Shown: piece by piece, positions 29,241 through 53,479 of the stretch | How the letters are laid out: each line of letters begins with the position of its first letter | How positions within the stretch are numbered: the first letter of the stretch is position 1 | Assembly: GCA_034620365.1 (NCBI GenBank) | Contig: JAQGEQ010000110.1 | Span: 372,001 to 436,000, forward strand | DNA: 64,000 bases | Direction of reading: 5' to 3' | Source of the DNA: Pegea sp. RAD2-039 | Lineage: Eukaryota; Chordata; Thaliacea; Salpida; Salpidae | Notes under the pieces: generated by a model | The model's database searches: none | The model's input: only the letters and a program-made list of their open reading frames with translations | What the model was told of the DNA's origin: nothing | Translations under genes and position numbers: made by a program

Positions 29241-29831
29241 AGCCATAGATGTTGGTTACATATGAGACTCCATCACTACAGCCAATTCTGTGACATCTTT
29301 TTATATAAAGTTTAAAAATAATGATTTTGTTGACGAGTGATTTATTAATTTATCAATTTTTGGGATTTATGCTTTATGTAATTGCCAACTGTGTTATAGT
29401 TGGATTTTTGTTGTGTTCTTATATTTTCAATAAGTTATAATGAACTATTTTACTGATAAACTAAAAAGTTTTCAACAAAATATTTGTATCTCAACAACAA
29501 ACTGATAATATATGAATTATATTTTTATAACTTCAAACTAAGCTTTCATAAATAATTAGAAGATACTGATTACTTTGTTACATGTGACTGCATATGTTTG
29601 TTATGGGATGAATATAAAATTAAAGTTTAACTGAAGGATATTTACTTCACCCTTCAATGGTAGAAATCAAAAATGATATTTGATAAACTTTTTTATTCCA
29701 TGTATAATAGCTGAGATTTTATTTTACTAAAATATTTAAAAAGTTTAAACAAGCGTTCAAGGCACCTCATTGAGATTGTCGATGCCTCTGACTATTTTGA
29801 CAACGAGCTCAGTTGTTACCCAATTCAATTA

Positions 29832-29839
29832 TGACGTCA
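29832..29839. promoter_or_regulatory. CRE palindrome upstream of 318-aa gene, copy A
   Basis: TGACGTCA, 70 nt upstream of the ATG. The same site sits at the equivalent place in copy B. Regulatory role is inferred from position and conservation. Confidence 0.5.
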
Positions 29840-29909
29840 CTATTAAACATTTCATCTTTATACTTTCACCAAGTTTTAACACATTTTATTATTAGTATTC
29901 GGCACGCAT

Positions 29910-30866
29910 ATGAGCATTTCACGAATTTCTAAAATGAGTCTTTCAGTGAAGCCAAGTTTGAATGATTATAGAGTCAGCTCTCATTGTAATCGTTTACTCG
30001 AAGATAAAATCGAGTTGTGGGAGTTTCTGGCCCTTGAAAAAATTTGTCTTCAGGAAGATTTTAACATCGACGATGTTGAAAAAATAAACCTGAATCGAGA
30101 TGGTAATTCTCAGCCAGACTCTGCTCCACCCTTGTTGGTGATGAAAAGCCATAAAGAAACTAACTTGCTTCGAAGAAGAAGAAGTTATTCACTTGAAAAC
30201 CTAAAAATTGGTTATAACAAGCCCTACAAACATATTAATGGGCTTCCACCTTTGTGGGTTTCCAGACAGAAACCAAAAGTTAAAAAATCTAAAAAACGTT
30301 CTAAGAAAAATAAAAAGAAGATTCAGTTGAGTAGAAAAAGAAATTTAGCTGTAACAAAAGCTGAGTTTAAGAATCAACTACAAAATCTTAGTATACCGCC
30401 TTGTATTCCCGAGTTAGTTGAAGACATTATATCAACTAGCTCTGAAAGTAGTGATACTTATGGTGCTTGTGATGGAGATGGTGATAGTTTAAACTCCATA
30501 GATGAAATAAAAAGCATTGATTCGTTTTATGCTGGAGGTGATGGCAATAACAATGAAATAAAAAAGAAAAGTATTGAGCAATGCTTTCAATATATGCCAT
30601 TTAAAGAAAACATCAAAACTACACCGATTAAAGCAAGTAGCTCGTCTAGTTTTCGTAATTTGTTTATGAGGAAGAATCGAGTTTCACCATTAATTATGGC
30701 TGTTGAACCTAAACCTCAGAAAAAGTCAATTTGGAAAAGTTTGAAAAATAAACTCAGCATTTCTTGCAAAAGTTCCATAATTGACAAAACCTTCTATTAT
30801 ATGGGTGCTGCATCCTCAAAGTTAATATTTCCTTCATTTAACTTTGCTTTATTAATTGTAAAATGA
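29910..30866 (+). CDS. single-exon basic, Ser-rich protein, copy A (unknown)
   Basis: Uninterrupted 318-codon frame. No known domain recognised. Residues around 125-147 form a strongly basic patch (KPKVKKSKKRSKKNKKK) that could be a nuclear localisation or nucleic-acid-binding signal. It is followed by a Ser/acidic stretch (STSSESSDTYGACDGDGDS) and a second basic region (KKSIWKSLKNKL); the C-terminus is hydrophobic (LIFPSFNFALLIVK). No signal peptide. Two nearby in-frame ATGs (first and ninth codon); the first is used here. Copy B differs at about 17 of 318 residues with the frame intact, which supports a real protein. Its 3' end faces that of the multi-exon gene, about 1 kb away. Confidence 0.8.
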   Translation: MSISRISKMSLSVKPSLNDYRVSSHCNRLLEDKIELWEFLALEKICLQEDFNIDDVEKINLNRDGNSQPDSAPPLLVMKSHKETNLLRRRRSYSLENLKIGYNKPYKHINGLPPLWVSRQKPKVKKSKKRSKKNKKKIQLSRKRNLAVTKAEFKNQLQNLSIPPCIPELVEDIISTSSESSDTYGACDGDGDSLNSIDEIKSIDSFYAGGDGNNNEIKKKSIEQCFQYMPFKENIKTTPIKASSSSSFRNLFMRKNRVSPLIMAVEPKPQKKSIWKSLKNKLSISCKSSIIDKTFYYMGAASSKLIFPSFNFALLIVK

Positions 30867-31882
30867 AGTAATTTATTGCGGATGTTGGCAAACATCATTA
30901 AAACTTCAATATAAGGACATTTGAGAGAAAGCTCTTCAAATATTTCCAAAGAAAGTGCTTATGAATATGCTAATTTATTCGTAGTCTTTGAACGTTCTGT
31001 TATTAATCTGCATTATTGCAAACTTTTAAACGTTTTCACGACTTTTCGATATTATTTCATTCAATAAAACAGATAAAAACTCAAAAAATTGGATGTCTCT
31101 TTTTATTTTGTCAATTATTTCAAATCAAATATCATAGAGAAACATAATTCTTGTTTGAAATCAAATGTTTGCTATTTTTTCGATAATTAAAAATTTCTCT
31201 TTTATACAAACAAGCTAAAAATAAAATATCTAAGACTTTTTATTAAGTCCAAACTTTAGTTACATTAAACTAAAATTCTAAAGGTTCAGTTAATAATGTT
31301 TAACTTTTCAAAGGAATACATGAATGAGAAACTGTAATTATATTTACAAAATATTCATGTATGCATGTAATTAGCAGGACAATTTCTTGTGTTTATTGGT
31401 CATATATTTAGCTAAATCCTGTTGTGGACCTCATAACTCATTCATCTTTGTGACTTTGGAGAAAATCCTTTCCTAGCAACACTTCAACACAGAGGTCCCC
31501 CAAAACAAACAGCGTTATATTCTTGTTATGTGTCTTTAATAGTTAGAGACTAACTCTGAAATAGTTCCCGCATGATTAATATAGAACCTCTTTAGACTAT
31601 TAGAGGTGTATGTTGGATCTAATAATCCTTTCATGTATGATCATTAAATGTGATTATAGTGGAGAGTGGCGTGAACTGATAAAAACAGACTTAGTTATTT
31701 GCTAAAATCGAGTTTTATTACATTGACAAATTATCAAAGGCGATCTTGAAAACATTGAGTTAGAGTTGAAAAGATATTCCAAGAAAGGAAAGCGCGACTT
31801 GAAAGAAACTTTTAGAAACAGGAAAGCGTGCGAATCAGAAAATAATTTGGGAGTAGAGACTTGAATCCCTTTTTGCTTTTGT
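30867..31882. other. tail-to-tail spacer in block A
   Basis: Non-coding region between the 318-aa gene and the 3' end of the multi-exon gene. It is strongly similar to 44,321-45,335, showing that non-coding sequence has hardly diverged since duplication. No RNA gene recognised. Confidence 0.45.
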
Positions 31883-34800
31883 TTAGAACTTTTTTTCTAA
31901 AAAAGAAAACATTTTTGATTTTTATTAACAAAACATGAGTAAAGTATTTCATTTATAATAACTCTTTAAAAGAAGAAAATAAATAACATGTTAACTTACT
32001 CATAAACTGGAAGCACTTGAAAATGTTTAATGACGGTTTTTTCGCTACTTTAATTTTCTATGAAAGTAAAAAGTATAAATAAAAGAAAATATCTTGAAAA
32101 GTGAAAGTTAAAAAACTGTTGCTAATATATTTTCTTATTTAAATGTTACCTCTTCAATATCAAGGTCCTTTTGAGTCTGTAATGTTTATAAAACCCTTTT
32201 ATTTGTAACTTACATAAAAGTATTTAAAGCTTTTGTAATAAATTACTTAGTTTGATAAATATTGAAATATTAACTCAATTATAAGCAAAACTAATAAGCT
32301 AGACTCTTAATAAAACTGAATCAAAATTAATTATTATCAACAGAAATCTTTAAAATATATATTTAAAATATAAGCTTTTTGAACTTACCAGAGCTACAAC
32401 TTTATTCTTATCTAGACCCAGAAGATTTCTAAAAAACTATTAAAAAAGTAAATATTAGAGGTCAATTTGAAAAAGATAGAAAAATAACTTTTTATTTATT
32501 TTTCTAAATGATCTTAACATTTGGTAAATATAATTTACTTTTCTTATTTTACTCTTTTTCTTTGGTTTTATCTCATTGGCCAAGACGTTGTCATCATTAT
32601 ATTTGCTGGTAACCTTAATTAAAAAAAAGATAGATAATATCATCATGATTTCCAAACTGACATAAAAGTTTTGTAATCACATCACTTACCTTGGTTGACT
32701 CTTTAATTTCAGGTAAAACCAAGCTGTAATTGGGTCTAATAAAACCCTAAAAATAATAATAATATTAAAAATGCCTTAAAATTGGAGTTTTAGTTTAGCT
32801 GTTGGCAAAAACTTAATAGTGGAAGAAAATTAATAAATATTAAATTTGAAATTTTATTTTTAAATCATGCAAAAGAAAATCTACCAATTTGTTGTAATTC
32901 TCAGATATAATCATATTTGGATGTTGTATTATTGTGTCTTCAATAATCTGTTGAAATAGACATTTTATTTTTAGAATCTCAAATTTAAAGTAAAAAAATT
33001 ATTCGATAAAAAATTAGTATACAAAATTAAACTTTGTAAGATCGCCTTATATTTTATAATAGAGTAAAAACGTTTTTTAATAATTTCATTAGTCAATTAA
33101 CACAACGAATTTGGGAAACAAATTTTAATTAATATTGTTTAAAAACTAAACACAAAAAGCTCTAAATCTCACATTTTCATTTTCATCTGTGATTTTTCCT
33201 TCTAGTTTGTTTGCTTTCAACTTTGGATTTTCCAGAAAGCAGTTTTGAACTTTGGGTACCTATTGTTGTGTAAAAAATGATTGATTAAAGTATATCAAGA
33301 AATACCAATATATGGAACATAAATAGCAAATTATTACAATGCAGTAACAATGAGATAAATATTTGATAAAATTCAAATATGTTACAAGATTTGTTTCAGT
33401 TTTATAAGTCAATAGCAGATAGAATTCAATGATTAATTTTTGGTAGTTTGTAATTAACTTAATCTTGACAAGTTTTATAATTGAAGGTTTATCACAAAGT
33501 AAACAATATTAATTTTCACCTTCGATATGGGAAGTGAAGACAGCTTTTTTCTGTAAATGTTTGGTGTTAAAACAACTTCTTGCTGTAATAAATAACGTCA
33601 GTTAGAACTTGAACCATAAAATAGATGTTTATACTAATATTTCACTTACTATACGTTTTATTTATATATTTTTAATTTATAAAATACTGACTTTATGTTC
33701 AGACTCTTTCTTTAATAACAAATTAGGATCTTCATTAAGCTCTTCATCATTCAAAGTATCCTGTACTTCATTTAGTTTTTCATTTACTACTGATCTTAGT
33801 TCCTTAAAAATAAGTAAAAATTATTATTATTATTATTATTGTTATTATATAACTTTTGATAAATTGGTATCTTTAGGATAATGGTTTAAAAATAACAACT
33901 ATACAAGACCAGATAATTAAGATTTATAAAAGTTTTATATCGCTCAGGAAAAAGTTTATTATTTTTGTATCAAAATTGCGTTAAAATAGAAGTAAAAAAA
34001 ATTCAAAGTTGTAAATGATCTTTTTGATCAAGTTTGTTATTACACTTCTTTAAACAATTTCACTTGAGAGTTGTGGCTGTCATAACATTAATAAAAAAAA
34101 TTTGGAAATAATTGCATAAAGCAATTTGAAAGTATGAACATTTATTTTAATTTCTTTTTACCTCAGAAATATCAGGAGTATTTTCAGAATCAGAACTCTT
34201 AGTATCGGCTCCGTTTGAATCAAAACCGGTTTTCTTGAAAATAAATCAAAATATTTCTATTTAATATTCTAATATAATCGATAACTTTTCTGAATACTTA
34301 TTTTGGATGTTAAATATTAATGTTTAATATCATCACCATCTTCAAAGTTAGTTGTTTATTTAACAATCTCTTCAAAGTTAGTTGCTTAATTTTAACCAAT
34401 CACATAAAATAATGAACAATAAAAATAGAGAATTACAAACTTGAATACCTCACAACAATCAGAAGCTTTAGTATCTTCTGAAAAGTTCAAAACCGATCTT
34501 TTATCACTCCCAGTTTTACCAATAACACCTCCCTTGAAAAGAAATAGACAAATCTTTTAGTAATTTCTGTCTTTCGATGTTTAAAACCAACTTACATCCC
34601 CAAAAGACTCAATGACGTCATCAACACTAGAATCAGATCGCTGTAAAATTTTGTTTTTAAATTTACATCTAATAAATTCTACCCTAAAATTCTACTTCAA
34701 CAAACTTTTGAATTGTTTTTAAATTAGATTTTAAAGATTATTTATTTTAAGCTTAAAATAAGTTAGATTGCTAGGCTAATTTCAAAACTAAATATTTTTT

Positions 34801-37800
34801 ATTTTCTGATTCTATCATATCATAGAGTTTACAAAAATATCTAAAACTCTTACAACGTTGGATAAGTCAGGACTTCTAACATTTGGGTTCAATTCAAGCT
34901 TTCCATCAGTTGCAGTTACAGTAGCTTCAGGCTCCTTATATAAAATTAAAAATTATTTCTTGGTATTACTGAAAGTACTTTGAGCAGAAGCATTCTCTTT
35001 ATTTAATCTACTAATTAAAAAACTTACCTTGCTACAAGTCAAAGTGTTGTTACTGATTACATCATTAGATGGTTGATTAATGAATTCCTAAGAAGTTTGA
35101 TTTCCGATTATTATTATTTTTAAAGTTTATAGAAATTAGGTAAAAGTTTAATTTTAATTTTGGAAAGATGTTTCAATTTGAGTTTTTTGTTAGATTTCTT
35201 TGGTATTGTTATTTGGAGTTTTAACTTTTAAAATAATTGTCCAAAACTTTTAATAGAATTTTAAAAAGTAGGTAATAGCTCAAATCAAATGTTTTAATTT
35301 CTACACACTTGGAGTATATCTGAAGCACTTGTAGATGAAGAACTTTGTTTCTCGTTTACTTTTGAAATTGGTTCCTTGAAAATAAGTAAAAACAAAAATA
35401 AGTTAGATTTGCAATTTTTGAAAATTAAATTAAATTCTTTTTCTATCTTTTTTTAAACATGTAGTTAGAATGATTTAAGATTAACGAAATTAAATCAACA
35501 CTTGAAAAATTAAGTAAAAAAAAGTTTCAAACTTTCTTTACCTTAGAAAGATCAGGGAGTCCTGTTTCTCCTTTAGAGCTGAAAGTAGTTTTCTTAACAA
35601 CTTCAACAGAATCAGTTTTGGAAACCTTAAAAAAGTTTAAATTCAGTTAATATAAAAGACTTTTTGATCTTATTAATAATTGTTAGGGTACTTTTAAAAT
35701 CAGGTTGGTTTTTACTTCTAACTTTCAAGCAGGAAGCTGGTTTATTAAAATGTATCAAATATATTATTCGGCAGAAAGTTATCTAATTTATTTAAGTTTT
35801 TAGTTTGTAAAACTAAGAAATGTTTTAGATCTACTAGTCAACTTCTTGCTATAATATATAACTTCCGTCAGAACTTGAACAATCAAATGAATGTTTATTC
35901 ACTAATATTTTATTTGCTAAAAGTTTTTTTATAAATTTTTAAATACTGACTTTAGTTTCAGCCATTTTCTTTAATAACAAATTAATTTCTTCAAAAAACA
36001 CTTCATCATCCAAATCATCCTGTATTAAAAATAATATGATTTAAATGTGATTCTGAGTTTTTTGAAATGATGTTAAAAAAATTTTGATAATTTATTCAAA
36101 AAATTATTGAACAACTAAATTAAATAATTTACAAATTATAAATTGTGATGAATAGCAGTTTCTAAATCAACTTACATCCGATATCAGCTCAAACTTTTTC
36201 TCACTATAAGATGTAACTTGTGATATCTGCAAAAGGTTTTTGAAAAATAATTCTCATTAAGTTTGTTATTCAACAATTTAATGTCTTACTTTGGCTGGAT
36301 CCTTCTTCTTCAATAGTGATTTCAGAACCAGGATAGGCTCCGTCCTCCCAATCACTATTGGGTCAGTAAAAACCACCTAAAAGTTGGGTAAATTAGAAAA
36401 TTAAACATTAAAAAAATAAAGAGAAGTTTAAGTCACCAAATGTTTACAAAACTTTTAAAATAAACTAAAGAGGCTTATACAACAACAATTTATTTGAAAA
36501 AAGTTACTCTTTTGTGTTTGGCTTCAGATTCAAGCAAACACTGCTCCTTCATCTTTTCCTTCTTCTCTTTTTCTTTTTCTATCAACCATATTTGCTCAGA
36601 GTCAAAGATATCATCATTCAAAAGCTCCTAGTTTTAAAGATCAGTATTTAAATATATTAACAAAATAGTGATTAGCTTCAAGTTAGTTTGTTTTAAACTG
36701 ATAAATATGAGATATAAATAATTTGTGTAGCTAAATATGAACTGTATGATGGAGTACCTCCACCATTTTTGCTGTTTCTTCATCCAAAAGTTCTTCTGAA
36801 GTTTTTGTAGTTGGTTTCTGAAATTTGATAACTGGTTAACTTTAAGTTGGTTTATTTATCTTAAATTTAGTTTGTTTATGAAAAGTTATTTTAAGATAGT
36901 TTATTTGAACCTAAAAAATTAGTATAAGAAATAAATGTACAAATAATTTAGAAATATTACATTCAATTTGTCTCTATGTAATTTCTTCTTCTCGGCAGAA
37001 AGATCTTTCCAAATATCAGTTTTTAGATACTGAAAATACTTTAAATTAATAATGAAATCGTTGTAAAAATAGTTTAAGATTTTTTAATAATAAATATTGA
37101 TTTGCAAAAACATTAAGACTTAAAATCACATTTGCATGAATAAAACAAAATAATTTTATGAAACTTTTAAGGAAAAAGATGCAACACTCACATCTTCAAT
37201 TGTTGGGGCATCTTGATTAGATACATCAGAATCAACAACAGAGGGAACAATCTATAAGTATTAAAGAGTTTAAAAGTGAGATAAGTTAGATCGTTAAATA
37301 GATTTTAAAGTAAATTTGCAAGCAAATATTTCTATGTTGATTTATCACAAAAAATTTAAAAAGACAAATTGCAGAAATTGTTTACATCTTTGATAAATTA
37401 ATTCTAAAGTTAATTTCTTAATTATCTATTTCTTATTTTCTTGTTTCCTCTTCTGTATCAAATAATTAATATTTAAATAAGTTTTGATTCGAACAGATGG
37501 AGCAGTTTATCATTTTTATATCAATATAATGCGTTACCAAAATGAACAAACAAATTATTCAAAGTTTTAAATGATCTTTTTGATCAAGTTTGTTATCAGA
37601 CTTCTTTAAACAATTTCACTTGAGAGTTGTGGCTGTCATAACATTGATAAGAATTTTTTTGAAATAATTGCATAAAGCAATTTGAAAGTATGAAAATTAA
37701 TTTAATTATTTTTACCTCAGAAATATCAGGAGAATTTTCAGATGCAGAACTCTTAGTATCGGATCCATTTGAAACAAAACCGGTTTCCTTGAAAATAAAA

Positions 37801-40054
37801 AAGAATATTTCTATTTAATATTTTAATTTAATCGATAACTTTTCTAAATAATTATTTTAGATGTTAAATATTAATTTTTAATATCATCATCTTCAAAGTT
37901 AGTTGTTTATTTAACAAATCACATAAAATAATGAATAATAAAAACAAAGTATTACAAACTTGAATACCTCACAACAATCAGAAGCTTTAGTATCTTCTGA
38001 AAAGTTCAAAACCGATCTTTTATCACTCCCAGTTTTACCAATAACACCTCCCTTGAAAAGAAATAGATAAAATTAAGTTTTAGAAATTTCTTTCGATGTT
38101 TAAAACCAACTTACATCCCCAAAAGACTCAATGACGTCATCAACACTAGAATCAGATTGCTGTAAAATTTTGTTTTTAAATTTACATCTAATAAACTCTA
38201 CCTAAAATTCTACCTCAACAATCTTTTAAATTGTTTTTAAACTAAATTTTAAAGAATATTTATTTTAAGCTAAAAATAAGTTAGATTGCTAAGTTAATTT
38301 CAGAACTAAATATTTTTTATTTTCTGATTCTATCATATCATAGAGTAAACAAAAATATCTAAAACTCTTACAACGCTGGATAAGTCAGGACTTCTAACAT
38401 TTGGGTTCAATTCAAGCTTTACATCAGTTGCAGTTACAGTAGTTTCAGGACCCTTATAAAAAATTAAAAAGTGATTTTTGATTTTACTAAAGTACTTTAA
38501 GCAGAAGTATTCTCTCTATTTAATCTACTAACTAAGAAAACTTACCTTGCTACAAGTCAAAGTGTTGTTATTGATTACATCATTAGATGGTTGATTAATG
38601 AATTCCTAAAAAGTTTGATTTTCCATTATTATTATTTTTACATTTTTATAGGAATTAAGTAAAATTTTTTGATTATTTGTAGATCAATTAGTAGATAGTT
38701 TATCATTTGTTACATTCAATAAGTAATATTTAGATAAACAAAACATTTGTTAGAAGTTTTAGTTTATAGAAAGATGTTTCTATTTAAGTTTTTGTTAGAT
38801 TTCTTCGATAATATCATTTTGAGTATTTGGCTTTTAAAATAATTGTCGAAGAACTTTTAATAGAATTGTAAAAAGTAGCTAATAGCTCAAACCAAATGTT
38901 TCAATTTCTACATACTTGGAGTATATCTGAAGCACTTGTAGATGAAGAACTTTGTTTCTCGTTTACTTTTGAACTTGGTTCCTTGAAAATAAATAAAACA
39001 ATAATTAAGTTAAATTTGCAATTTTTGAAAAGTAAATTAAATTCTATATTTAATTTGAACATGTAGTTGGAATAGTTAAAGATTAACGAAATTAAGTCAA
39101 CACTTCAAAAATTAAGTTCAAAAAAGTTTCAAACTTTCTTCACCTTAGAAAGATCAGGAAGTCCTGTTTCTCCTTTAGAGCCAAAAGTAGTTTTTTCAAC
39201 AACTTCAACAGAATCAATTTTTGAAACCTTAAAAAGATTTCAATTTAATCAATTAATATAAGATAATTTACTTATTTTATTAATGCTTTTTAGGGTACAT
39301 TTAAAATTAAATAAATTCTTATTATTCATTAATTCAAGCAATAAACTGGTTAATTTAAAAGTATTAAATTTATATTTCGGCTAAAACTCATTTTATTTCA
39401 TCTTTCTTTTCGTTTGTAAAAATAAGTTGGATGCTTAACATCTACCAACTAACTTATACTTTATAGATCTCATAAATTCCCTAACATAATAATAATAATA
39501 AATAACACAATAAAACTAACTAAAACTTTTTAGACCTTATAAAGTCCCAGGTGTTTGATTAGTCAAACTGTACTTAAAAATTAGTAGACTTACTACAAAA
39601 TCAAACTTTATTTTAAAATATCTATATGTATAAACTCTCTAATCTAATAACCATTAATAAATTTAGTAATCAATATATTTATTACTAATTTTTACTATTA
39701 ATTTTAAGCTAAAAAAAGTTATGCTCTTATTTCAAATGTAGCACAAAACTTATTTAGAAGACATTAATAGTTTCATTAAATATGCAAATAATCAAAAAAT
39801 AGATTAGATTTTTGTAAGAAATGCTTCTATTTCACTTAAAACAACTTTTCTGCCACCGAAAAGTCTGAAGCAGAACTGACGCCAGCGCACCAAAAACTGG
39901 TTTTTACTACGTAAGTTTAAGCAACTAAATATTTAAACTCTTCTTTTGCTTAAAATACTTATAAAAAGTCTTACTTAATACAACACTAAGCATTATAAAG
40001 ATTAAAACTGATAATAGATTACAAAAATCAAATTACTTCAATAGTTTTTTCCAT
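31883..40054 (-). CDS. multi-exon modular protein, symmetric phase-0 exons, copy A (unknown)
   Basis: I read 32 exons, about 696 aa. All introns are phase 0 except the last. Exons: 40037-40054, 39144-39227, 38916-38981, 38546-38605, 38372-38452, 38115-38159, 37968-38051, 37716-37787, 37192-37251, 36961-37029, 36758-36817, 36508-36627, 36290-36376, 36176-36226, 35951-36019, 35542-35625, 35309-35374, 35028-35087, 34854-34934, 34596-34640, 34449-34532, 34162-34233, 33692-33802, 33520-33582, 33173-33259, 32885-32947, 32690-32746, 32539-32613, 32389-32406, 32150-32176, 32000-32057, 31883-31896. Starts MEKTIE; hydrophilic, acidic and Ser/Lys-rich, probably disordered, no signal peptide. Exons 2-8 recur as exons 16-22. 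No family recognised. The terminal exons are the least certain. Confidence 0.75.
33940..35720. repeat. seven-exon module, A-proximal
   Basis: Contains exons 16-22 of copy A (lengths 84, 66, 60, 81, 45, 84, 72). It matches 37,500-39,340 exon by exon, and introns align too, for example cacttgagagttgtggctgt at 34,061. Confidence 0.85.
37500..39340. repeat. seven-exon module, A-distal
   Basis: Exons 2-8 of copy A, with the same seven lengths and order as 33,940-35,720. The intronic marker cacttgagagttgtggctgt recurs at about 37,617. Confidence 0.85.
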
Positions 40055-40164
40055 GATAACTTGAATTTCGGCTTTATACAAAGAACGCAGTTAGCTCATT
40101 AAATCAAGTGAAAAATATTTGATAATAATTTTTATATTCACCGATCAACTAAAAACGGGCATTA

Positions 40165-40172
40165 TGACGTCA
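40165..40172. promoter_or_regulatory. CRE palindrome upstream of multi-exon gene, copy A
   Basis: TGACGTCA about 110 nt upstream of the MEKTIE start codon; conserved in copy B. Confidence 0.5.
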
Positions 40173-40490
40173 TTAGTGTCATAGTTGGTTCAACTTTAGC
40201 TTTGGAAAACTATTCTAGTGTAGATGTGAGCAAATAGCAAATTATATATATTAATAAATAAAATAATTTGACAAAATTAGAATGTTATTTTTATTCTTTG
40301 AAAACATCACTTCAACCATCAGCTTAAAACATAAGAAAGATATTTTAAGTTTAAACTTATCTGAAAACTGTTAAAATCGATTTTCGAGAATTAAGCTCAA
40401 TCAATGAAAGCTAGATGAAATTAATTCTTGTTTTCAAATGTAGAAAATTTATCGTTTTTTGCAAGGCGAATTATTAACTGTAACATTATC

Positions 40491-40870
40491 AAGCTTATTA
40501 AACATTCTTTTGTATTAGCATTTCAAAATGTTTTCTTTTTAATAGATATTACTTACTGCTAAAACATGTTAAGTTAATTTGTAGTTGTAAGAATGAAATT
40601 TTATTTTGTTTTTCGAAAAGAGAGCTTTTGAAAATTGACAAATAATCAAAAAAACTTTAAGAATAATAAAAATTGAATTATAAAAAGCTACAAATATCAA
40701 GAAGAACTTGCATACTTGCATTTAACTGATAATAAATATATCTAAATATTTGTCAAAGTTTCTTTGCAGATTTCATTTCTACTTGTTATATAAGTTCAGG
40801 TTCCTCGCAGCAAGTTAAATCAATTTATTTATAAACTAAAGCTTAAAATAAAGTTGGTTTTGAGAACGTT
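40491..40870. other. unique spacer right of block A
   Basis: AT-rich, not duplicated at the end of block B. Nothing recognised. Confidence 0.4.
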
Positions 40871-41850
40871 CCAAAGGTATGCGTCCTCTAAAAGAGGTGT
40901 ATAACCGAAATCAGAAAGAACAACCAACTGATTTCAAATACAAAGTTAGAGGTCCACCATGGGCCTTGAGAATTGTCAAGGTTTTTTTTCAAAAAACAGA
41001 AGTGGCAAATAACCACTGGTTCCACATCTTCTTTTTTCACATCCTGTTCGCACACAGTTGTGAATACCATCCTTCCAGCCCAAGATATTGGTTCACAGAA
41101 GCCCATCATCAAATCTCACGAGCGTCAAAAAGACAATTCTTCTATCGCATTAGGTATGTTCTTCAACGCACAGTCGATTATCAACAAAATTTTCCAATAT
41201 ATTGCTGGTTTACGTTTTCAAGATTTTACATTTTTATAACTGAAACTTGGTTGAAACCGTTTTATCCTGATTCTTTTCTGGTTGACGGTAATCTTTTTTG
41301 TGTTTTACGGTGTGATAGAGTCGGTGGTGTTTGCGTAATTTACAAAACATCGCTGACACCCAAGATCTGTAGGTTTCTAATCGATGCCATTAATTGTCCA
41401 GGATTTGAGATTATCGCTTTTGATTTTCATTACTCAAAGTTCAAATTGTCTCCATTTTTATGTATATACCCACCTCAGGTTTACTATTAACCTCTTATAG
41501 AGGTTTGAAAAATGTTATTTGTATTGAGTTATCTGTTTTAGCGGATTTAAGTGTTATTAAAATTGATTGGAACACCCCGAATTTAACATTTATGGGAAAA
41601 TCGTTTAACTTAGACAGCGACAATCCTAGTTCAGCCATTTTAAATCATGTTTTTGTATGTTTCCTCGATGCCAATAATCCATCTCAGACGGTTACTTTTC
41701 CAACTCAGGTTAATAGTAATACTTTGGATCTTCTTATCACATCAACACCTGGCAACATTATCTACGTTGATCAAAAAGAACCTTTTGCTTTGACATGCGA
41801 TCACAATATGGTTGTATTCAAGTTCCATCAAACTTTTTTATGAACGTTAA
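40871..41850 (+). pseudogene. CR1-like LINE, endonuclease domain, frameshifted
   Basis: Three overlapping frames together give a decayed ORF2 start. One frame reads SIALGMFFNAQSIINKI, then another gives ITETWLKPFYPDSFLV and GGVCVIYKTSL, then a third gives LDLLITSTPGNIIYV and CDHNMVVFKF. These are the NARS, TETWL and SDHN steps of the APE-type endonuclease of CR1-like LINEs. At least two frameshifts separate them, and no intact reverse transcriptase follows. Confidence 0.8.
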
Positions 41851-42683
41851 AACTCCATGGAAACGGAATTCTTCTCGTGGAAATTATCATGGTATTAATG
41901 AGTTTCTATCAGTTGCTCTACCGAAGACATCAATAATATTACTAAGAGTTTACTAACATCATTAAAAAGTCAACAGAAATAGTTTTACCTTTTTATAGCT
42001 TCAACAAAAAGTCACATTTGCTAAAATATTTAAGAAATTTACAACATTTGAAAAATCTTCCTATACAAGCAAACTAAAACAGACTTTTCCATCAAATCTC
42101 TTTATAAAGATCTTTGTATAGTTTACCAAAAATCTCTAATTTCTTCTTAGGAAGAGAAAGTCTAATAATAAACCAGCAGGAAATTTGTTGGCTTCATAAA
42201 TCACAAGCTTGAGGCGAGATCTCAAATACCTCCCTTGATTGATAACAACTACTAGCTTGTGATGGAACCAGAGATTGAAGCTGAACTGCTAAACAATCAA
42301 TTTTTATAACAAATGATGGAAATACTCCGACATTCTCACAAATGTCTCTCAGATGACAGATTTTGACGTAACGGTTGTATGTGTATGGTTGTTAAAGATT
42401 CTGTTTTATTGCAATGGTGTCTGAGTAGGGTTTACGAGCCACTTTTGACTTATACATCATCTAACTAGATAAAAATTGCAGTATACTAGAGAGTGAAAGA
42501 GAAAGGAAGAAGAAATGCTCTGCATTACTTTAGTAAGTCTGATGGTACTACTGCTACCTACTAGTGCTACTTTTCCAAGCTTATTGGTCTTGTTGGCTCA
42601 CAATCCAATCGTATATAATTGATAAACTTTCTGATTTATTCGTTGGTGTCTAAGAGATCATCTACACTTGTCTTCAAGAACTA
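41851..42683. other. spacer between LINE fragment and block B
   Basis: Possibly decayed LINE downstream sequence. No readable reverse-transcriptase motif; no gene. Confidence 0.35.
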
Positions 42684-43284
42684 TAAGACTCCATCACTAC
42701 AGCAAGCTCATTCACTTCTTTAATATAAAGTTAATAGTTAATATAAAAATAATGCTTTTGTTGACGAGTGATTTATTAGAATATCATTTTTTGGATTTAT
42801 ACTTTATGTAATTGCCAACTGTGTTATAGTTGTACTTTTGTTGTGTTCTGATTTTTTCAATAAGTTATAATGAACCATTGTACTGATACACTAAAAAGTT
42901 TTCAACAAAATATTTCTAACTCAACAACAAACTGATAATATATGAATTATATTTCTATAACTTCAAACTAAGCTTTCATAAATAATTAGGAGATACTGAT
43001 TACTTTGTTACATGTGACTGCATATGTTTGTTATGGGATGAATATAAGATTAAAGTTTATCTGAAGGATATTTACTTCACCCTTCAATGGTAGAAATCAA
43101 CAATTATATTTGATAGACTTTTTTATTGCATGTATAGTAGCTGAGATTTCATTTTAATAAAATGTTTAAAATAGAATAAAAAGAAATATCTAAAAAGAAT
43201 AAACAAGCGTTCAAGGTACCTCATTGAGATTGTCGATGCCTCTGACTATTTTGACAACAAGCTTAGTTGTTACCCAATTCAATT

Positions 43285-43292
43285 ATGACGTC
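43285..43292. promoter_or_regulatory. CRE palindrome upstream of 318-aa gene, copy B
   Basis: TGACGTCA at the same offset from the ATG as in block A. Confidence 0.5.
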
Positions 43293-43363
43293 ACTATTGA
43301 ACTTTTTATCTTTATACTTTTGCCAAGTTTTAACACATTTTATTATTAGTATTCGGCACGCAT

Positions 43364-44320
43364 ATGAGCATTTCACGAATTTCTAAAATGAGTCTTTCAG
43401 TGAAGCCAAGTTTGAATAATTATAGAGTCAGCTCTCATTGTAATCGTTTACTCGAAGATAAAATCGAGTTGTGGGAGTTTCTGGCCCTTGAAAAAATTTG
43501 TCTTCAGGAAGATTTTAACATCGACGATGTTGAAAAAATAAACCTGAATCGAGATGGTAATTCTCAGCCAGACTCTGCTCCACCCTTGCTGGTGATAAAA
43601 AGCCATAAAGAAACTAACTTGCTTCGAAGAAGAAGAAGTTATTCACTTGAAAACCTAAAAATTGGTTATAACAAGCCCTACAAACATATTAATGGGCTTC
43701 CACCTTTGTGGATTTCCACACAGAAACCGAAAGTTAAAAAATCTAAAAAACGTTCTAAGAAAAATAAAAAGAAGATTCAGATGAGTAAGAAAAGAAATTT
43801 AGCTGTAACAAAAGCTGAGTTTAAGAATCAACTACGAAATCTTAGTATACCGCCTTGTATTCCCGAGTTAGTTGAGGACATTATATCAACTAGCTCTGAA
43901 AGTAGTGATACTTATGGTGCTTGTGATAGAGATGGTGATAGTTTAAACTCCATAGATGAAATAAAAAGCATTGAATCGTTTTATGCTGGAGGTGATGGCA
44001 ATAACAATGAAATAAAAAAGAAAAGTATTGAGCAAAGCTTTGAATATATGCCATTTAAAGAAACCATCAAAACTACACCGATTAAAACAAGAAACTCATC
44101 TAGTTTTCGTAATTTGTTTATGAGGAAGAATCGAGTTTCACCATTAATTATAGCTGTTGAACCTAAACCTCAGAAAAAGTCAATTTGGAAAAGCTTGAAA
44201 AATAAACTTAGCATTTCTTGCAAAAGTTCCATAATTGACAAAACCTTCTATTATATGGGTGCTGCATCCTCAAAATTGATATTTCCTTCATTTAACTTTG
44301 CCTTATTAATTGCAAAATGA
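43364..44320 (+). CDS. single-exon basic, Ser-rich protein, copy B (unknown)
   Basis: Intact 318-codon paralogue of the gene at 29,910 (about 95% identical by my residue count). The basic patch, Ser/acidic stretch and length are kept. Changes cluster in the last third (for example SSSSSF to RNSSSF). Function not recognised. Confidence 0.8.
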   Translation: MSISRISKMSLSVKPSLNNYRVSSHCNRLLEDKIELWEFLALEKICLQEDFNIDDVEKINLNRDGNSQPDSAPPLLVIKSHKETNLLRRRRSYSLENLKIGYNKPYKHINGLPPLWISTQKPKVKKSKKRSKKNKKKIQMSKKRNLAVTKAEFKNQLRNLSIPPCIPELVEDIISTSSESSDTYGACDRDGDSLNSIDEIKSIESFYAGGDGNNNEIKKKSIEQSFEYMPFKETIKTTPIKTRNSSSFRNLFMRKNRVSPLIIAVEPKPQKKSIWKSLKNKLSISCKSSIIDKTFYYMGAASSKLIFPSFNFALLIAK

Positions 44321-45335
44321 ATTGAATTATTGTGGATGTTTGCAAAGCTTCAATGTAAGAACATTTGAGAGAAAGCTCTTCAAATATTTCGAAAGAAAGT
44401 GTTTATGAATATGCTAATTTATTCGTAGTCTTTGAACGTTCTGTTATTAATCTGAATTATTGCAAACTTTTAAACGTTTTCACGATTTTTGATATAATTT
44501 CATTCAATAAATTAAATAAAAACTCAAAAAATTGGATGTCTCTTTTTATTTTGTCAATTATATCAAATTATTTCAAATTAAATATCATAGAGAAACATAA
44601 TACTTGTTTGAAATCAAATGTTTGCCATATTTTCGATAATTAAAAATATTTTTTTATACAAACAAGCTAAAAATAAAATATCTAAGACTTTTTATTAAGT
44701 CCAAACTTTAGTTACATTAAACTTAAATTCTAAAGGTTCAGTTAATAATGTTTAACTTTTCACAGGATTACATGAACATTGAAACTGTAATTATATTTAC
44801 AAAATATTCATGTGTGTGTGTAATTTGCAGGACAATTTCTTGTGTTCCTGGGTCATATATTTAGCTAAATCCTGTTGTGGACCTCATAACTCATTCATTT
44901 TTTTGACTTTGGAGAAAATCCTTTCCTAGCAACACCTTAACACAGAGGTCCTCCAAAACAAACAGCGTTATATTCTTGTTATGTGTCTTTAATAGTTAAA
45001 GACTAACTCTGAAATAGTTCCTGCATGATTAATATAGAACCTCTTTAGACTATTAGAGATGTATGTTGGATCTAATAATCCTTTCATGTATGCGCATTAA
45101 ATGTGATTATAGTGGGGAGTGGCGTGTACTGATAAAAACAGACTTAATTATTTGCTAAAATCGAGTTTTATTACATTGACGAGTTATCAAAGGCGATCTT
45201 GAAATCATTGAGTTAGAGTTGAAAAGATATTCCAAGAAAGGAAAGCGCGACTTGAAAGAAACTTTTTGAAACAGGAAAACGTGCAAATCAGAAAATAATT
45301 TGGGAGTAGAAACTTGAATCCCTTTTTGCTTTTGT
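44321..45335. other. tail-to-tail spacer in block B
   Basis: Counterpart of 30,867-31,882. A 92-codon open frame here (44,365) is interrupted in copy A and is not considered a gene. Confidence 0.4.
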
Positions 45336-48300
45336 TTAGAACTTTTTTTCTAAAAACGAAAATCTTTTTATTTTTATTAACAGAATGACTCTACATATTT
45401 CATCTGTAATAACTCATTAAAAGAAGAAAATAAATAACATGTTAACTTACTCATAAACTGGAAGCACTTGAAAATGTTTAATGACGTTTTTTTCGCTACT
45501 TTAATTTTCTATGAAAGTAAAAAGTATAAATAAAATAATATATTGAAAAGTGTAAGTTAAAAACTGTTGCTAATAGATTCTCTTATTTAAATGTTACCTC
45601 TTCAATTTCAAGGTCCTTTTGAGTCTGTGATATTTTTAAAACCCATTTTATTTGTAATTTGCACAGAAATATTAAAGGTTTTTGTAATAAATTACTTAGT
45701 TTGATAAATATTGAAATATTAATTTATTATCAACAGAAATCTTTAAAATATAAGCTTTTTGAACTTACCAGAGCTATAACTTTATTCTTATCTAGACCCA
45801 GAAGATTTCTAAAAAACTATTAAAAAATATTAGAGGTCAATTTAAAAAAGATAGAAAAAATAACTTTTTATTTATTATTGTAAATGAACTTAACATTTGG
45901 TAATTATAATTTACTTTTCTAATTTTACTCTTTTTCTTTGGTTTTATCTCATTGGCCAAAAAGTCGTTATCATTGTATTTGCTTGTAACCTTAATTAAAA
46001 AAGATAGATATTATCATCATGATTTCCAAACTGACATAAAAGGTTTTTAAGCACATCACTTACCTTGGTTGACTCTTTAATTTCAGGTAAAACCAAGCTG
46101 TAATTAGGTCTAAGAAAACCCTAAAAATAATGATAATTTCAGAAATGCCTTAAAATTGGCCTTTTTAGTTTAGCTGTTTGCAAAAACTTAATAGTTAGGA
46201 GGAATTATAAAATATCAAATTTGAAATTTTATTTTTAAATCATGCAAAAGGAAAATTACCAATTTGTTGTAATTCTCAGATATAATCATATTTGGATGTT
46301 GGATTATTGTGTCTTCAATAACCTGTTGAAATAGTCATTTTATTTTTAGAAACCAAAATTTTAAGCCAAATAATTTTTCGATAAAAAATTAGTATACAAA
46401 ATTAAACTTTGTAAGATCGCCTTATATTTTATAATAGAGTAAAAACATTTTTTAATGATTCTATTAATCAATTAACACAACGAATTTGGAAAACAAATTT
46501 TGATTAATATTGTTTCAAAACTTAATATAAAAAGCTCTAAATCTCACATTCTCATTTTCATCTGTGATTTTTCCTTCTAGTTTGTTTGCTTTCAACTTTG
46601 GATTTTCCAGAAAGCAATTTTGAACTTTGGGTACCTATTGTTGTGTAAAAAATAATTGATTAAAGTCTATCAAGAGATACCAATATATAGAACATAGATA
46701 GCAAATTATTACAATGCAGTAACAACGAGATAAAAATTTGATAAAATTTAAATATGTTACAAGATTTGTTTCAGTTTTATAAGTCAATAGCAGATAGAAT
46801 TCAATGATTAATTTATGGTAGTTTGTAATTAACTTAATCTTGACAAGTTTTATAATTGCAAGTTTATCACAATATAAACAATATTTATTTTCACCTTCGA
46901 TATGGGAAGTGAAGACAGTTTTTTTCTGTAAATGTTTGGTGTCAAAACAACTTCTTGCTGTAATAAATAACTTCTGTTAGAACTTGAACAATAAAGAGAA
47001 TGTTTATACTAGTATTTCATTAACTATAAGTTTTATTTATATGTTTTTCTAAAATACTGACTTTATGTTCAGACTCTTTCTTTAATAACAAATTAGGATC
47101 TTCATTATGCTCTTCATCATTCAAAGTATCCTGTATTTTATTTAAATTCTCATTTAGGATTGATCTTAGTTCCTTGAAAATAAGTAAAAATTATTATTAT
47201 TAATATATAACGTTTTGATAAATTGGTATCTTTAGGATAATGGTTTAAAAATAACAACTATACAAGACCAGATAATTAAGATTTATAAAAGTTTTATCTC
47301 GATAAGGGAAAGAGTTTATTACTTTTGTATCAATATTATGCAGCGTTAAAATAAAAGAAAATTATTCAGAGTTGTAAATGATCTTTTAAATCAAGTTTGT
47401 TATTACACTTCTTTAAACAATTTCACTTGAGAGTTGTGGCTGTCATAACATTGATAAAAACACTTTTGAAATAATTACATAAAGAAATTTGAAACTATGA
47501 ACATTTGTTTCAGTTACTTTTTACCTCTGAAATATCAGGAGTATTTTCAGATGCAGAACTGTTAGTATCGGCTCCGTTTGAATCAAAACCGGTTTCCTTG
47601 AAAATAAATAAGAATATTTCTATTTAATATTTTGATTTAATCGATAACTTTTCTGAATAATTATTTTAGATGTTAAATATTAATGTTTAATATCATCATC
47701 TTCAAAGTTAGTTGTTTATTTAACAAATTACATAAAATAATGAAGAATCGAAATAGAGAATTACAAACTTGAATACCTCACAACAATCAGAAGCTTTAGT
47801 ATCTTCTGAAAAGTTCAAAACCGATCTTTTATCACTCCCAGTTTTACCAATAACAGCTCCCTTGAAAAGAAATAGATAAAATTAAGTTTTAGAGATTTCT
47901 TTCTTTCGATGTTTAAAATCAACTTACATCCCCAAAAGACTTAATGACGTCATCAACACTAGAATCAGATCGCTGTAAAATTTTGATTTTATATTTACAT
48001 CTAATAAAATCTACCTCAACAAATTTTTAATTTGCTTCTAAATTAGATTTTAAAGAATATCTATTTTAAGCTTAAAATAAGTTAGATTGCTAGGCTAATT
48101 TCAAAACTAAATATTTTATTTTCTGATTCTATCATATCATAGAGTAAACAAAAATATCTAAAATTCTTACAACGTTGGATAAGTCAGGACTTCTAACATT
48201 TGGGTTCAATTCAAGCTTTTCATCAGTTGCAGTAACAGTAGTTTCAGGCTCCTTATGAAAAATTAAAAAGTGATTTTTGGTGTTACTGAAAGTACTTCGA

Positions 48301-51300
48301 GCAGAAGCATTTTCTTTATTTAATCTACTAACTAAAAAAACTTACCTTGCTACAAGTCAAAGTGTTGTTATTGATTACATCATTAGATGGTTGATTAATG
48401 AACTCCTAAAAAGTGTGATTTCCGATTATTATTATTTTTAAAGTTTATAGAAATTAGGTAAAAGTTTAATTTAATTTTGGAAAGATGTTTCTATTTGAGT
48501 TTTTTGTTAGATTTCTTTGGTATTGTTATTTGGAGTATTTGGCTTTTAAAATAATTGTTCAAAACTTTTAATAGAATTGTAAAAAGTAGCTAATAGCTCA
48601 AATCAAATGTTTTAATTTCTACACACTTGGAGTATATCTGAAGCGCTTGTAGATGAACAACTTTGTTTCTCGTTTACTTTTGAAATTGGTTCCTTGAAAA
48701 TAAGTAAAAACATAATTAAGTTAAATTTGCAATTTTTGAGGATTAAATTAAATTCTATCTTTTTTTAAACATGTAGTTAGAATGATTTAAGATTAACGAA
48801 ATTAAATCAACACTTAAAAAATTAAGTAAAAAAAGTTTCAAACTTTCTTCTCCTTAGAAAGATCAGGGAGTCCTGTTTCTCCTTTAGAGCCGAAAGTAGT
48901 TTTTTCAACAACTTCAACAGAATCAGTTTTGGAAACCTTAAAAAAATTTAAATTCAGTTAATATAAAAGACTTTTTGATCTTATTAATAATTGTTAGGGT
49001 ACTTTTAAAATCAGGTTGGTTTTTACTTTTAATTTTTAAGCACAAAGCTGGTTTATTAAAATGTATTAAATATATTATTCGGCAGAAAATTATCTAATTT
49101 ATTTAAGTTTTTAGTTTGTAAAACTAAGAAATGTTTTAGATCTACTAGTCAACTTCTTGCTATAATAAATAACTTCCGTCAGAACTTGAACAATAAAATA
49201 GATGTTTTTTACTAATATTTCATTTGCTAAAAGTTTTTTTATAAAATTTTTAATACTGACTTTAGTTTCAGACATTTTCTTTAATAACAAATTAATTTCT
49301 TCAAAAAACTCTTCATCATCCAAATCATCCTGTATTAAAAATAATATGATTTAAATGTGATTCTGAGTTTTTTGAAATGATGTTAAAACAATTTTGATAA
49401 TTTATTCAAAAAATCATTGAACAAATAAATTAAATAATTTACAAATTATAAATTGTGATGAATAACATTTTCTAAACCAACTTACATCTGATATCAGCTC
49501 AAACTTTTTCTCACTATAAGATGTAACTTGTGATATCTACAAAAGGTTTTTGAAAAATAATTCTTATTAAGTTTATTATTCAACAATTTAATGTCTTACT
49601 TTGGCTGGATCCTTTTTCTTCAATAGTGATTTCAGAACCAGGATAGGCTCCGTCCTCCCAATCACTATTGGGTCAGTAAAAACCACCTAAAAGTTGGGTA
49701 AATTAGAAAATTAAACATTAAAAAAATAAAAGGAAGTTTAAGTCACCAAATGTTTACAAAACATTTAAAATAAACTAAAGAGGCTTATACAACAACAATT
49801 TATTTGAAAAAAGTTACTCTTTTGTGTTTGGCTTCAGATTCAAGCAAACACTGCTCCTTCATCTTTTCATTCTTCTCTTTTTCTCTCTTTTCTTTTTCCA
49901 TTTGCTCTTTTTCTATCAACCATATTTGCTCAGAGTCAAAGATATCATCATTCAAAAGCTCCTAGTTTTAAAGATCAGTATTTAGATATATTAACAAAAT
50001 AGTGATTAGCTTCAAGTTAGTTTGTTTTAAACTGATAAATATGAGTTACAAATAATTTGTGTAGCTAAATATGAACTATATGATGGAGTACCTCCACCAT
50101 TTTTGCTGTTTCTTCATCCAAAAGTTCTTCTGAAGTTTTTGTAGTTGGTTTCTGAAATTTGATAACTGGTTAACTTTAACTTGGTTTATTTATCTTAAAT
50201 TTAGTTTCTTCAAAAAGTTGTTTTCAAACAGTTTATTTGAATTTAAAAAAATAGTTAGAAACAAATGAAAAAATAAGTTAAAATAAATAATAAATAAATG
50301 TACAAATAAGTTAGAAATATTACAATCAATTCGTCCCCATGTAATTTCTTCTTCTCGGCAGAAAGATCTTTCCAAATATCAGTTTTTAGATACTGAAGAT
50401 ACTTTAAATTAATAATAAACTCGTTGTAAAAATAGTTTAAGATTATTTTAATTATAAATGTTGATTTGCAAAAAATTTAATTATTAAAATCACATTTGCA
50501 TAAGTAAAACAAAATATTTCAATAAAACTTTTAAGGAAAAAGATGCAACACTCACATCTTCAATTGTTGGGGCATCTTCAATTGTTGGGGCATCTTTATT
50601 AGATACATCAGAATCAAAACCAAAAGGAACAGTCTATAAGTATTAAAGAGTTTAAAAGTGAGATAAGTTAGATCGTTAAATAGATTTTAAAGTAAATTTG
50701 CAAACAAATATTTCTATGTTGATTTATCACAAAAAATTTAAAAAGACAAATTGATGAAATTGTTTACATCATTGATAAATTAATTCTGAAGTTAATTTCT
50801 TAATTATTTATTTATTATTTTTTTATTTCATGTTTTGTATCAGATAATTAAGATTTAAATAAGTTTTGATTCGAACAGATGGAGCAGTTTATCATTTTTA
50901 TATCAATATAATGCGTTACCAAAATGAACAAACAAATTATTCAAAGTTTTAAATGATCTTTTTGATCAAGTTTGTTATCAGACTTCTTTAAACAATTTCA
51001 CTTGAGAGTTGTGGCTGTCATAACATTGATAAGAATTTTTTTGAAAGAATTGCATAAAGCAATTTGAAACTATGAACATTTATTTCAATTTGTTTTTACC
51101 TCAGAAATATCAGGAGTATTTTCAGATGCAGAACTCTTAGTATCGGCTCCGTTTGAAACAAAACCGGTTTTCTTGAAAATAAATAAGAATATTTTTATTT
51201 AATATTTTAATTTAATCGATAACTTTTCTGAATACTTATTTTAGATGTTAAATATTAATTTTTAATATCATCATCTTCAAAGTTAGTGGTTTATTTAACA

Positions 51301-53369
51301 AATCACATAAAATAATGAAGAATAAAAATAGAGAATTACAAACTTGAATACCTCACAACAATCAGAAGCTTTAGTATCTTCTGAAAAGTTCAAAACCGAT
51401 CTTTTATCACTCCCACTTTTACCAATAACACCTCCCTTGAAAAGAAATAGATAAAATTAAGTTTTAGAAATTTCTTTTTTTCGATGTTTAAAACCAACTT
51501 ACATCCCCAAAAGACTCAATGACGTCATCAACACTAGAATCAGATCGCTGTAAAATTTTGTTTTTAAATTTACATCTAATAAATTTTACCCTAAAATTCT
51601 ACTTCAACAAACTTTTAATTTGCTTCTAAATTAGATTTTAAAGAATATCTATTTTAAGCTAGAAATAAGTTAGATTGCTAGGCTAATTTCAAAACTAAAT
51701 ATTCTTTATTTTCTGATTCAATCATATCATAGAGTTTACAAAAATATCTAAAACTCTTACAACGCTGGATAAGTCAGGACTTCTAACATTTGGGTTCAAT
51801 TCAAGCTTTCCATCAGTTGCAGTTACAGTAGTTTCAGGCTCCTTATGAAAAATTAAAAAGTTATTTTTTATTTTACTGAAAGTACTTTGAGCGGAAGTAT
51901 TCCCTTTATTTATTCTACTAACTAAGAAAACTTACCTTGCTACAATTCAAAGTGTTGTTATTGATTACATCATTAGATGGTTGATTAATGAGCTCCTATA
52001 AAGTTTGATACCGATTATTATTATCATTTTTAAATTTTATAGAAATTAAGTAAAACTGTAATGATTTTTAGATCATTTAGTAGATAGTTTATTAATTGTA
52101 ACAATCATTATGTAATATTTAATAAATAAAACATTTGTTAGAAGTTTTAGTATATAGAAAGATGTTTCTATTTAATTTTTTGTTAGATTTCTTTGAAATT
52201 GTCATTTTGATTATTTAACTTTTATAATAATTGTCTAAAAACATTTTATTGAATTGTAAAAAGTAGCTAATAGCTCAAATCAAATGTTTCAATTTCTACA
52301 TACTTGGAGTATATCTGAAGCACTTGTAGATGAACAACTTTGTTTCTCGTTTACTTTTGAAATTGGTTCCTTGAAAAAAAGTAAAACAATAATTAAGTTA
52401 AATTTGCAATTTTTGAAAATTAAATTAAGTTTTATATTTAATTTGAACATGTAGTTGGAATAGTAAAAGATTAACGAAATTAAATAAACACTTAGAAATT
52501 AAGTTCAAAACAGTTCAAACTTTCTTCACCTTAGAAAGATCAGGGAGTCCTGTTTCTCCTTTAGAACTGAAAATACTTTTATCAACAACTTCAACAGAAT
52601 CAATTTTTGAAACCTTAAAAAGATTTACAATCATTCAAATAATATAAGATAATTCCTTTTTTTATTGTTATTTTTAGGATACCTTTAAAATTAAATAAGT
52701 TCTTATTATCCATTAATTCAAGCAATAAACTGGTTAATTTAAAAGTATTAAATATATTATTTGGCAAAAACTCATTTTATTTATACCATTTTTTAGTTAG
52801 TACAAATAAGAAATGCTTAATAGCTACCAACTAACTAAAAATTTTCAGACCTCATAAAGTCCCAGGTGTTTGATTAGTCAAACTATACTTAAAAATTAGT
52901 AGTCTTACTATAAAATCAAACTTTATTTTAAAATATCTATATGTATAAACTCTCTAATCTAATAACCATTAATAAATTTAGTAATCAATATATTTATTAC
53001 TAATTTTTACTATTAATTTTAAGCTAAAAAAAGTTATGCTCTTATTTCAAATGTAGCACAAAACTTATTTAGAAGACATTAATAGTTTCATTAAATATGC
53101 AGATAATCAAAAATTAAATCAAATTTTTGTAAGAAATGTTTCTATTTGACTTAAAACAACTTTTCTGCCACCGAAGAGTCTAAAGCAGAACTGACGCCAG
53201 CGCACCAAAAACTGGTTTTTACAACGTAAGTTTAAGCAACTAAATATTTAAACTCTTCTTTTGCTTATAATACTTATAAAAAGTCTTACTTAATACAACA
53301 CTAAGCATTATAAAGATTAAAACTGATAATAGATTACAAAAATCAAATTACTTCAATAGTTTTTTCCAT
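45336..53369 (-). CDS. multi-exon modular protein, symmetric phase-0 exons, copy B (unknown)
   Basis: Paralogue of the gene at 31,883-40,054 with the same start (MEKTIE, exon 53352-53369), the same exon order where checked, and the same final stop after a poly-lysine. The exons I checked are open with splice sites kept. Two length changes are in frame: an exon near 50,560-50,633 repeats DAPTIE (18-nt tandem duplication), and the exon near 49,820-49,965 carries 24 extra nt in its Lys/Glu helix. Predicted length about 710 aa. Intact frames after duplication suggest both copies are under selection or very young. Unknown function. Confidence 0.72.
47290..49050. repeat. seven-exon module, B-proximal
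   Basis: Third copy of the module, in block B. Exons read for example TTFGSKGETGLPDLSK-type and SDSSVDDVIKSFGD, with the intronic marker at about 47,425. Confidence 0.8.
50880..52720. repeat. seven-exon module, B-distal
   Basis: Fourth copy. Exons include FSSKGETGLPDLSK and ELINQPSNDVINNNTLNCSK, with the intronic marker at about 51,000. Confidence 0.8.
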
Positions 53370-53479
53370 AATAACTTGAATTTCGGCTTTATACAAAGAA
53401 CGCAGTTAGCTCATTAAATCAAGTGAAAAATATTTGATAATAATTGTTATATTCACCCATCAACTAAAAATTGGCATTA

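Follow-up and report, generated by a model that had tools for sequence, protein, structure and literature searches.

Genes of small phase-0 exons with blocks that vary in number and order form a multi-copy family in the salp Pegea sp.

A tandem pair of genes made of small symmetric exons

We analysed a stretch of 64,000 nucleotides from the salp Pegea sp. RAD2-039 (GCA_034620365.1, contig JAQGEQ010000110.1, positions 372,001 to 436,000), here called the window and corresponding to C236:372001-436000 in the AT-rich assembly that was searched (105.7 Mb, 387 contigs). A search of the assembly for COX1 gave no match; an 18S stretch has an animal-like appearance by eye, and runs of TTAGGG on C108, C125, C139 and C342 agree with an animal other than a typical arthropod or nematode. 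The window, with a G+C content of 23-41% in 2-kb steps, contains two genes built from many small exons, gene A and its tandem copy gene B. Both lie in a segmental tandem duplication with units at ~29.4-40.1 kb and ~42.8-53.4 kb, each of which consists of one 31-exon gene on the minus strand plus a single-exon gene, P0001, on the plus strand.

29356..53409 (limits approximate): segmental tandem duplication, spacing 13.3-13.45 kb
31953..40054, minus strand: gene A, 31 coding exons, 717 aa; 30/30 introns GT-AG, phase 0
45404..53369, minus strand: gene B, tandem copy of gene A, 31 coding exons

Exons were called from splice-signal candidates, which were kept if they recurred in both tandem copies and were then assembled. 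An initial annotation, made from the sequence of the window, had described about 32 exons of symmetric length bounded by phase-0 introns. The count became 31 per gene, and the observation of uniform phase-0 symmetric exons was confirmed. The lengths in gene A are 18, 84, 66, 60, 81, 45, 84, 72, 60, 69, 60, 120, 87, 51, 69 and 84 nt for exons 01-16 and 66, 60, 81, 45, 84, 72, 111, 63, 87, 63, 57, 75, 48, 27 and 105 nt for exons 17-31 (the last including the stop codon), and every mapped exon length in genes A and B is divisible by 3. The introns of gene A measure 63-809 nt; in 12 of its 30 acceptors the last three bases are AAG and not CAG or TAG, which is unusual in animals. Gene B has lost the donor after exon 16, which reads GAGAAG (from 48852), carries an 18-bp tandem duplication in exon 09 (an exon mapped as far as 50556), and has no stop where gene A stops, the frame of its last exon continuing past 45404.

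The initial annotation had also recognised a seven-exon cassette present twice per gene and four times in the window. Indeed, a cassette of exactly 28, 22, 20, 27, 15, 28 and 24 codons is found at four coordinate ranges, and in gene A it is accompanied by a middle block and by a 3' block that is present in all complete copies read.

37716..39227, minus strand: cassette A1, exons 02-08 of gene A
35951..37251, minus strand: middle block of gene A, exons 09-15 (20, 23, 20, 40, 29, 17 and 23 codons)
34162..35625, minus strand: cassette A2, exons 16-22 of gene A
31953..33582, minus strand: 3' block of gene A, exons 24-31
51100..52613, minus strand: cassette B1 of gene B
47525..48936, minus strand: cassette B2 of gene B, with the lost donor in its first exon

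The start exon encodes MEKTIE, and exon 23 is related to exon 15, which gives gene A the order 01, 02-15, 02-08 plus 15, 24-31. Descent of all exon types from a single ancestral phase-0 exon was not supported: when 253 pairs were compared with shuffles, only the pair 15/23 was clearly alike, exons 12 and 15 showing a borderline likeness (0.006).

The uniform phase is more than expected by chance

Taking half of introns to be in phase 0, a round figure, the odds that ~22 distinct junctions would all be in phase 0 are near 2e-7. A conserved CBF/Mak21-like gene (Pfam) elsewhere in the window, at 16049-14078, has junction phases 2, 2, 1, 0, 2, 2 and 2, with one of seven in phase 0; this background comes from one gene, with its junctions picked by eye with guidance from the family sequence. 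Furthermore, frames and splice sites recur at ~17% exon divergence in a diverged paralog of gene A, II-1 on C265, in which all 32 exons are phase 0 with open frames and AG/GT at the internal borders. Most II-1 exons also recur as phase-0 candidates in one of two other diverged copies, II-2 or II-6. Introns of mixed phase, which the initial annotation had named as a contrary result, were looked for and not found.

The product has no recognisable family and probably is intracellular

The whole 717-residue protein gave one Pfam match only, below the cut-off (E 0.084), and no PDB chain at E 1. For two pieces, which together span 516 of the 717 residues, NCBIfam gave a single match, also below the cut-off (E 0.07), and PHROGs gave no family at E 0.1. 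Across these four libraries, no ordinary family was matched above cut-off, in line with the earlier statement that no family could be named. A literature search of open-licence PMC papers found no description of this exon-gene family.

The absence of a visible signal peptide, likewise part of the initial annotation, agrees with the modelled protein, in which hydropathy, applied without a signal-peptide predictor and to a model that may omit an upstream exon, reveals no hydrophobic, leader-like stretch in the first 45 residues (maximum 12-residue mean 0.82). Anywhere in the protein, the maximum 19-residue mean is 1.07. With a net charge of -46, residues 1-543 plot on the disordered side of the charge-hydropathy line; the C-terminal 174 residues (+12) plot on the ordered side, and the whole protein lies almost on the line. 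Exon 28, in the 3' block, encodes a basic run, IKPKKKSKIRK, which by eye resembles the known motif of a nuclear localisation signal. We consider the product likely to be an intracellular and mostly disordered protein of repeated short segments.

Paralogs carry the same exon types in different orders

The assembly was searched with exons 25-31 as query; the counts are lower bounds for this search. This search for further copies, proposed in the initial annotation, yielded at least 8 close copies (subfamily I), ~15 diverged copies (subfamily II) and 3 relics with 3' exons only. The last exon matched at 8 subfamily-I places, 14 subfamily-II places and 3 relic places (C157, C238 and C14), and a fifteenth subfamily-II copy, on C372, was found by other exons. 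All eight close copies were read, namely A and B in the window, C, D and E on C236, F on C25, and G and H on C21; six of the 15 subfamily-II copies were read, the others being assigned by identity. C14 and C238 hold 3' exons only, and the relic on C157 was judged by its matches.

Fourteen gene stretches could be compared for exon order, eight of subfamily I and six of subfamily II, four of the latter being cut at one or both ends. At least four orders of the same exon types were found among them. The 31-exon order is common to six of the eight subfamily-I genes, and copies E and F start with 01 02 06 07 03 06 07 08. II-2 has 21 exons in the order 01 [02 06 07 10-15] [02 06 07] 24-31, to which II-1 adds one extra block, 02 06 07 08-15, to reach 32 exons; II-4, II-5 and II-6 match the II-1 order over their extent. 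II-2 contains a single 10-15 run, II-1 contains two, and the C244 stretch, which is cut at both ends, has at least three. The modules thus vary at the level of DNA, and the initial proposal that such exons can be skipped, duplicated or shuffled without breaking the frame holds for duplication, loss and reordering, all seen between paralogs and for the most part with the frame preserved. An apparent exon 14 after exon 31 in copy E was set aside, as it looks like a chance match (E 0.42).

Two side observations concern subfamily II. At C265:840000-859999 (loci L024 and L025), close to the end of the contig, two of its genes are arranged head to head with ~6 kb between them, and four further copy-bearing contigs, C244, C180, C62 and C372, are 17.4-21.9 kb long; the exon-gene array may therefore break the assembly. 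Upstream of the start exon, a piece of 21 residues resembling exon 13 is present in all five subfamily-II loci that include this flank.

L021 8255, L022 4527, L023 8454, L024 8880 and L025 3689: exon-13-like piece

Exon blocks are probably reshuffled by recombination

We consider it likely that these copies form a real multi-copy protein-coding family, in which blocks of small phase 0-0 exons are reshuffled by recombination and the start and 3' block are fixed. According to this model, the repeated exon blocks and the gene copies would undergo unequal recombination and gene conversion, and whole blocks would be added, dropped or swapped without a frameshift because every intron is phase 0. The start exon (MEKTIE) and the eight-exon 3' block would remain in place.

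Cassette distances were determined in the six genes in which both cassettes are complete. For exons 03-08 and most of their introns, the two cassettes of one gene were about as far apart as cassettes of different genes, whether these were taken from matching or from non-matching positions; for exon 07 the three values were 0.024, 0.020 and 0.021, in that order. That cassettes are about as alike across positions as within one suggests gene conversion or unequal crossing over between them. We infer that recombination is the cause of the variation, that the product resides within the cell and that the number of modules is of importance.

Constraint and lesions in the close copies

Exons and introns were compared over the 28 pairs of close copies, with missing exons, broken-frame exons, introns differing by >60 nt in length and intron ends omitted. 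The mean p-distance was 0.045 for exons versus 0.095 for introns, and dN/dS was 0.57. With exon divergence at half that of the introns and a dN/dS of 0.57, the family is, as far as these comparisons go, coding sequence under weak, uneven constraint. Three of the eight copies (A, C and G) are fully intact, retaining the complete set of 31 exons, every splice site and an open frame. The frame of copy F is open too; its first cassette is missing exons 04 and 05, exon 23 is absent, and its exon 09 has the same kind of 18-bp duplication as gene B.

Between the subfamilies, gene A was compared with II-1 over 19 of the 32 exons of II-1, giving dN 0.16, dS 0.34 and an exon p-distance of 0.17, against an intron p-distance of 0.23 over 16 introns. 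The lowest dN was found in exons 13, 24, 29, 30 and 31, exon 13 being the lowest within the middle block (exons 09-15).

Several observations weigh against a functional family shaped by recombination. Some positional difference is retained in exon 02 (0.052 at the same versus 0.078 at different positions) and in the 03-04 intron (0.099 versus 0.130), and a recent burst of duplication could instead yield equal cassette distances. Lesions are present in half of the close copies (B, D, E and H): donors are lost in gene B after exon 16 and in copy D after exon 14; in copy E, whose first cassette lacks exons 04 and 05, the frame is shifted in exons 02 and 12 and a stop interrupts the exon-23 match; and copy H combines a frameshift in exon 20 with loss of the donor after exon 22. 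A dN/dS near 0.57 by itself denotes weak constraint, and in the comparison of gene A with II-1 dN is above dS in exons 06, 07, 09 and 15 and about equal to it in exons 08, 10 and 27, single-exon values being noisy for exons this short. Some of the copies found on small contigs may represent alternative haplotypes. Finally, splice borders were checked one by one in II-1 and in the eight subfamily-I genes (in E and F, outside the extra start exons).

These lesions, together with the 3'-only relics on C14 and C238 (and, by its matches, C157), the dN/dS of 0.57 and the exons in which dN is at or above dS between subfamilies, would also fit an ordinary duplicated family in decay, in which the uniform phase is a frozen accident that serves no role today and most copies are becoming pseudogenes. 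We regard such decay as rather unlikely: exons are twice as conserved as introns among the close copies, three of eight copies are fully intact, and in a 32-exon gene of subfamily II the internal splice dinucleotides and the open frames have survived ~17% exon divergence.

Relation to other genes of symmetric exons

The schistosome micro-exon genes (MEGs), to which the initial annotation had pointed, have symmetric exons of 6-36 bp that make up ~80% of the coding sequence, and almost all of them encode secreted or membrane-anchored proteins (PMC5825161). The family described here resembles MEGs in having symmetric small exons, recent family duplications and proteins that are hard to name, so the parallel stands in principle, as a frame-safe and modular design, and fails for exon size and leader. 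All 31 exons of gene A are symmetric, but only two (18 and 27 nt) are within 36 nt; the others are 45-120 nt long, exon blocks are repeated inside the gene, and hydropathy indicates no leader.

In aphid bicycle genes, almost all internal exons are phase 2 and the average is ~17 exons per gene (PMC9168663). Like them, our genes have many small exons (31 in gene A; 21 and 32 in the complete subfamily-II genes) of uniform phase, occur in multiple copies and are recognisable by gene structure; unlike them, they have phase-0 introns (30/30 in gene A, and likewise in II-1) and lack a leader. Because the exon size and leader of MEGs and the phase 2 of bicycle genes are not found here, the family is not a member of either group; it shares their principle. 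Troponin T is described as a single-copy gene of known function with alternatively spliced cassette exons (PMC2447309). On that description it is similar in having exon runs that can be included or skipped, and differs from the present family with its many copies and repeated exon blocks.

A MEG-like generation of variants by alternative splicing is compatible with reshuffling by recombination. Since all exons are symmetric, any skip would preserve the frame, and skipping could bypass the lesions of B, D, E and H, every one of which falls in an internal symmetric exon. On the other hand, divergence is 0.19 and 0.224 in the intron flanks versus 0.19 in the intron middles, so that no conserved splicing signals were seen beside the exons by this measure. 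Flanks that are no more conserved than middles lend splice variation no support, and only two of the 31 exons are as small as those of MEGs, with no leader peptide. We therefore hold variant production by splicing to be possible, with the odds against it.

Reshuffling of blocks at the DNA level remains our preferred explanation. Discussions of uniform exon phase usually concern phase-1 extracellular modules, phase-2 bicycle genes and tiny-exon MEGs. A phase-0 family with many paralogs and varied block number and order constitutes a natural experiment on the gain and loss of internal blocks, and makes it possible to test whether skipping allows a symmetric exon to lose a splice site without harm. 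Speculatively, and with considerable doubt on our side, this could be a third independent symmetric-exon family, phase 0 and not secreted, in which >20 paralogs reassort blocks, splicing adds further combinations and the outcome is a changeable intracellular repertoire.

Neighbouring genes and mobile sequences

P0001 lies tail to tail with the exon gene in all eight subfamily-I loci, at a distance of 1.1 to 2.3 kb.

29910..30866, plus strand: P0001 copy 1, single-exon gene, tail to tail with gene A, ~1.1 kb apart
43364..44320, plus strand: P0001 copy 2, tail to tail with gene B, ~1.1 kb apart

P0001 is a separate amplified family, with 19 full-length uninterrupted copies on C21, C25 and C236 and a dN/dS of ~0.35 among the 8 distinct copies read (one entered twice). 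Four distant matches are found on C6, two of them uninterrupted, and no family was found for P0001 in Pfam or PHROGs. A homology between P0001 and the 3' block, considered for an FRNL-like motif in both, was rejected, the best match having an E of only 0.18. Eleven full-length P0001 copies are without a tail-to-tail exon gene. The one of these 11 that was fetched (C25:894200-903700) was a candidate for a lone P0001 beside a diverged exon gene, and it proved to have LINE sequence and no exon gene. The LINE-like sequence that adjoins this lone P0001 (L029 4748-8741) comprises a cysteine-rich PHD-like open reading frame (ORF) and an 846-aa ORF, which by eye resembles an endonuclease plus reverse transcriptase. 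A relative of this stretch, ~77% identical, is present in the window at 40878-42331.

The many copies, some of them on small contigs, and the LINE-like sequence nearby raise the question of whether the exon block belongs to a mobile element or to a virus-derived unit that spread, instead of being a host gene. We judge this highly improbable, as the genes are rich in introns, the close copies are found in tandem segments, a LINE and no exon gene is present at the single lone P0001 locus that was read, and neither the protein nor the pieces searched had a match in PHROGs, Pfam or NCBIfam. A viral origin in particular was dismissed on the lack of a PHROGs match.

Elsewhere in the window, positions 56838-57458 (minus strand) contain an FG-repeat nucleoporin segment (Pfam PF13634), within which a 36-nt unit is repeated ~13.7 times at 56895-57389.
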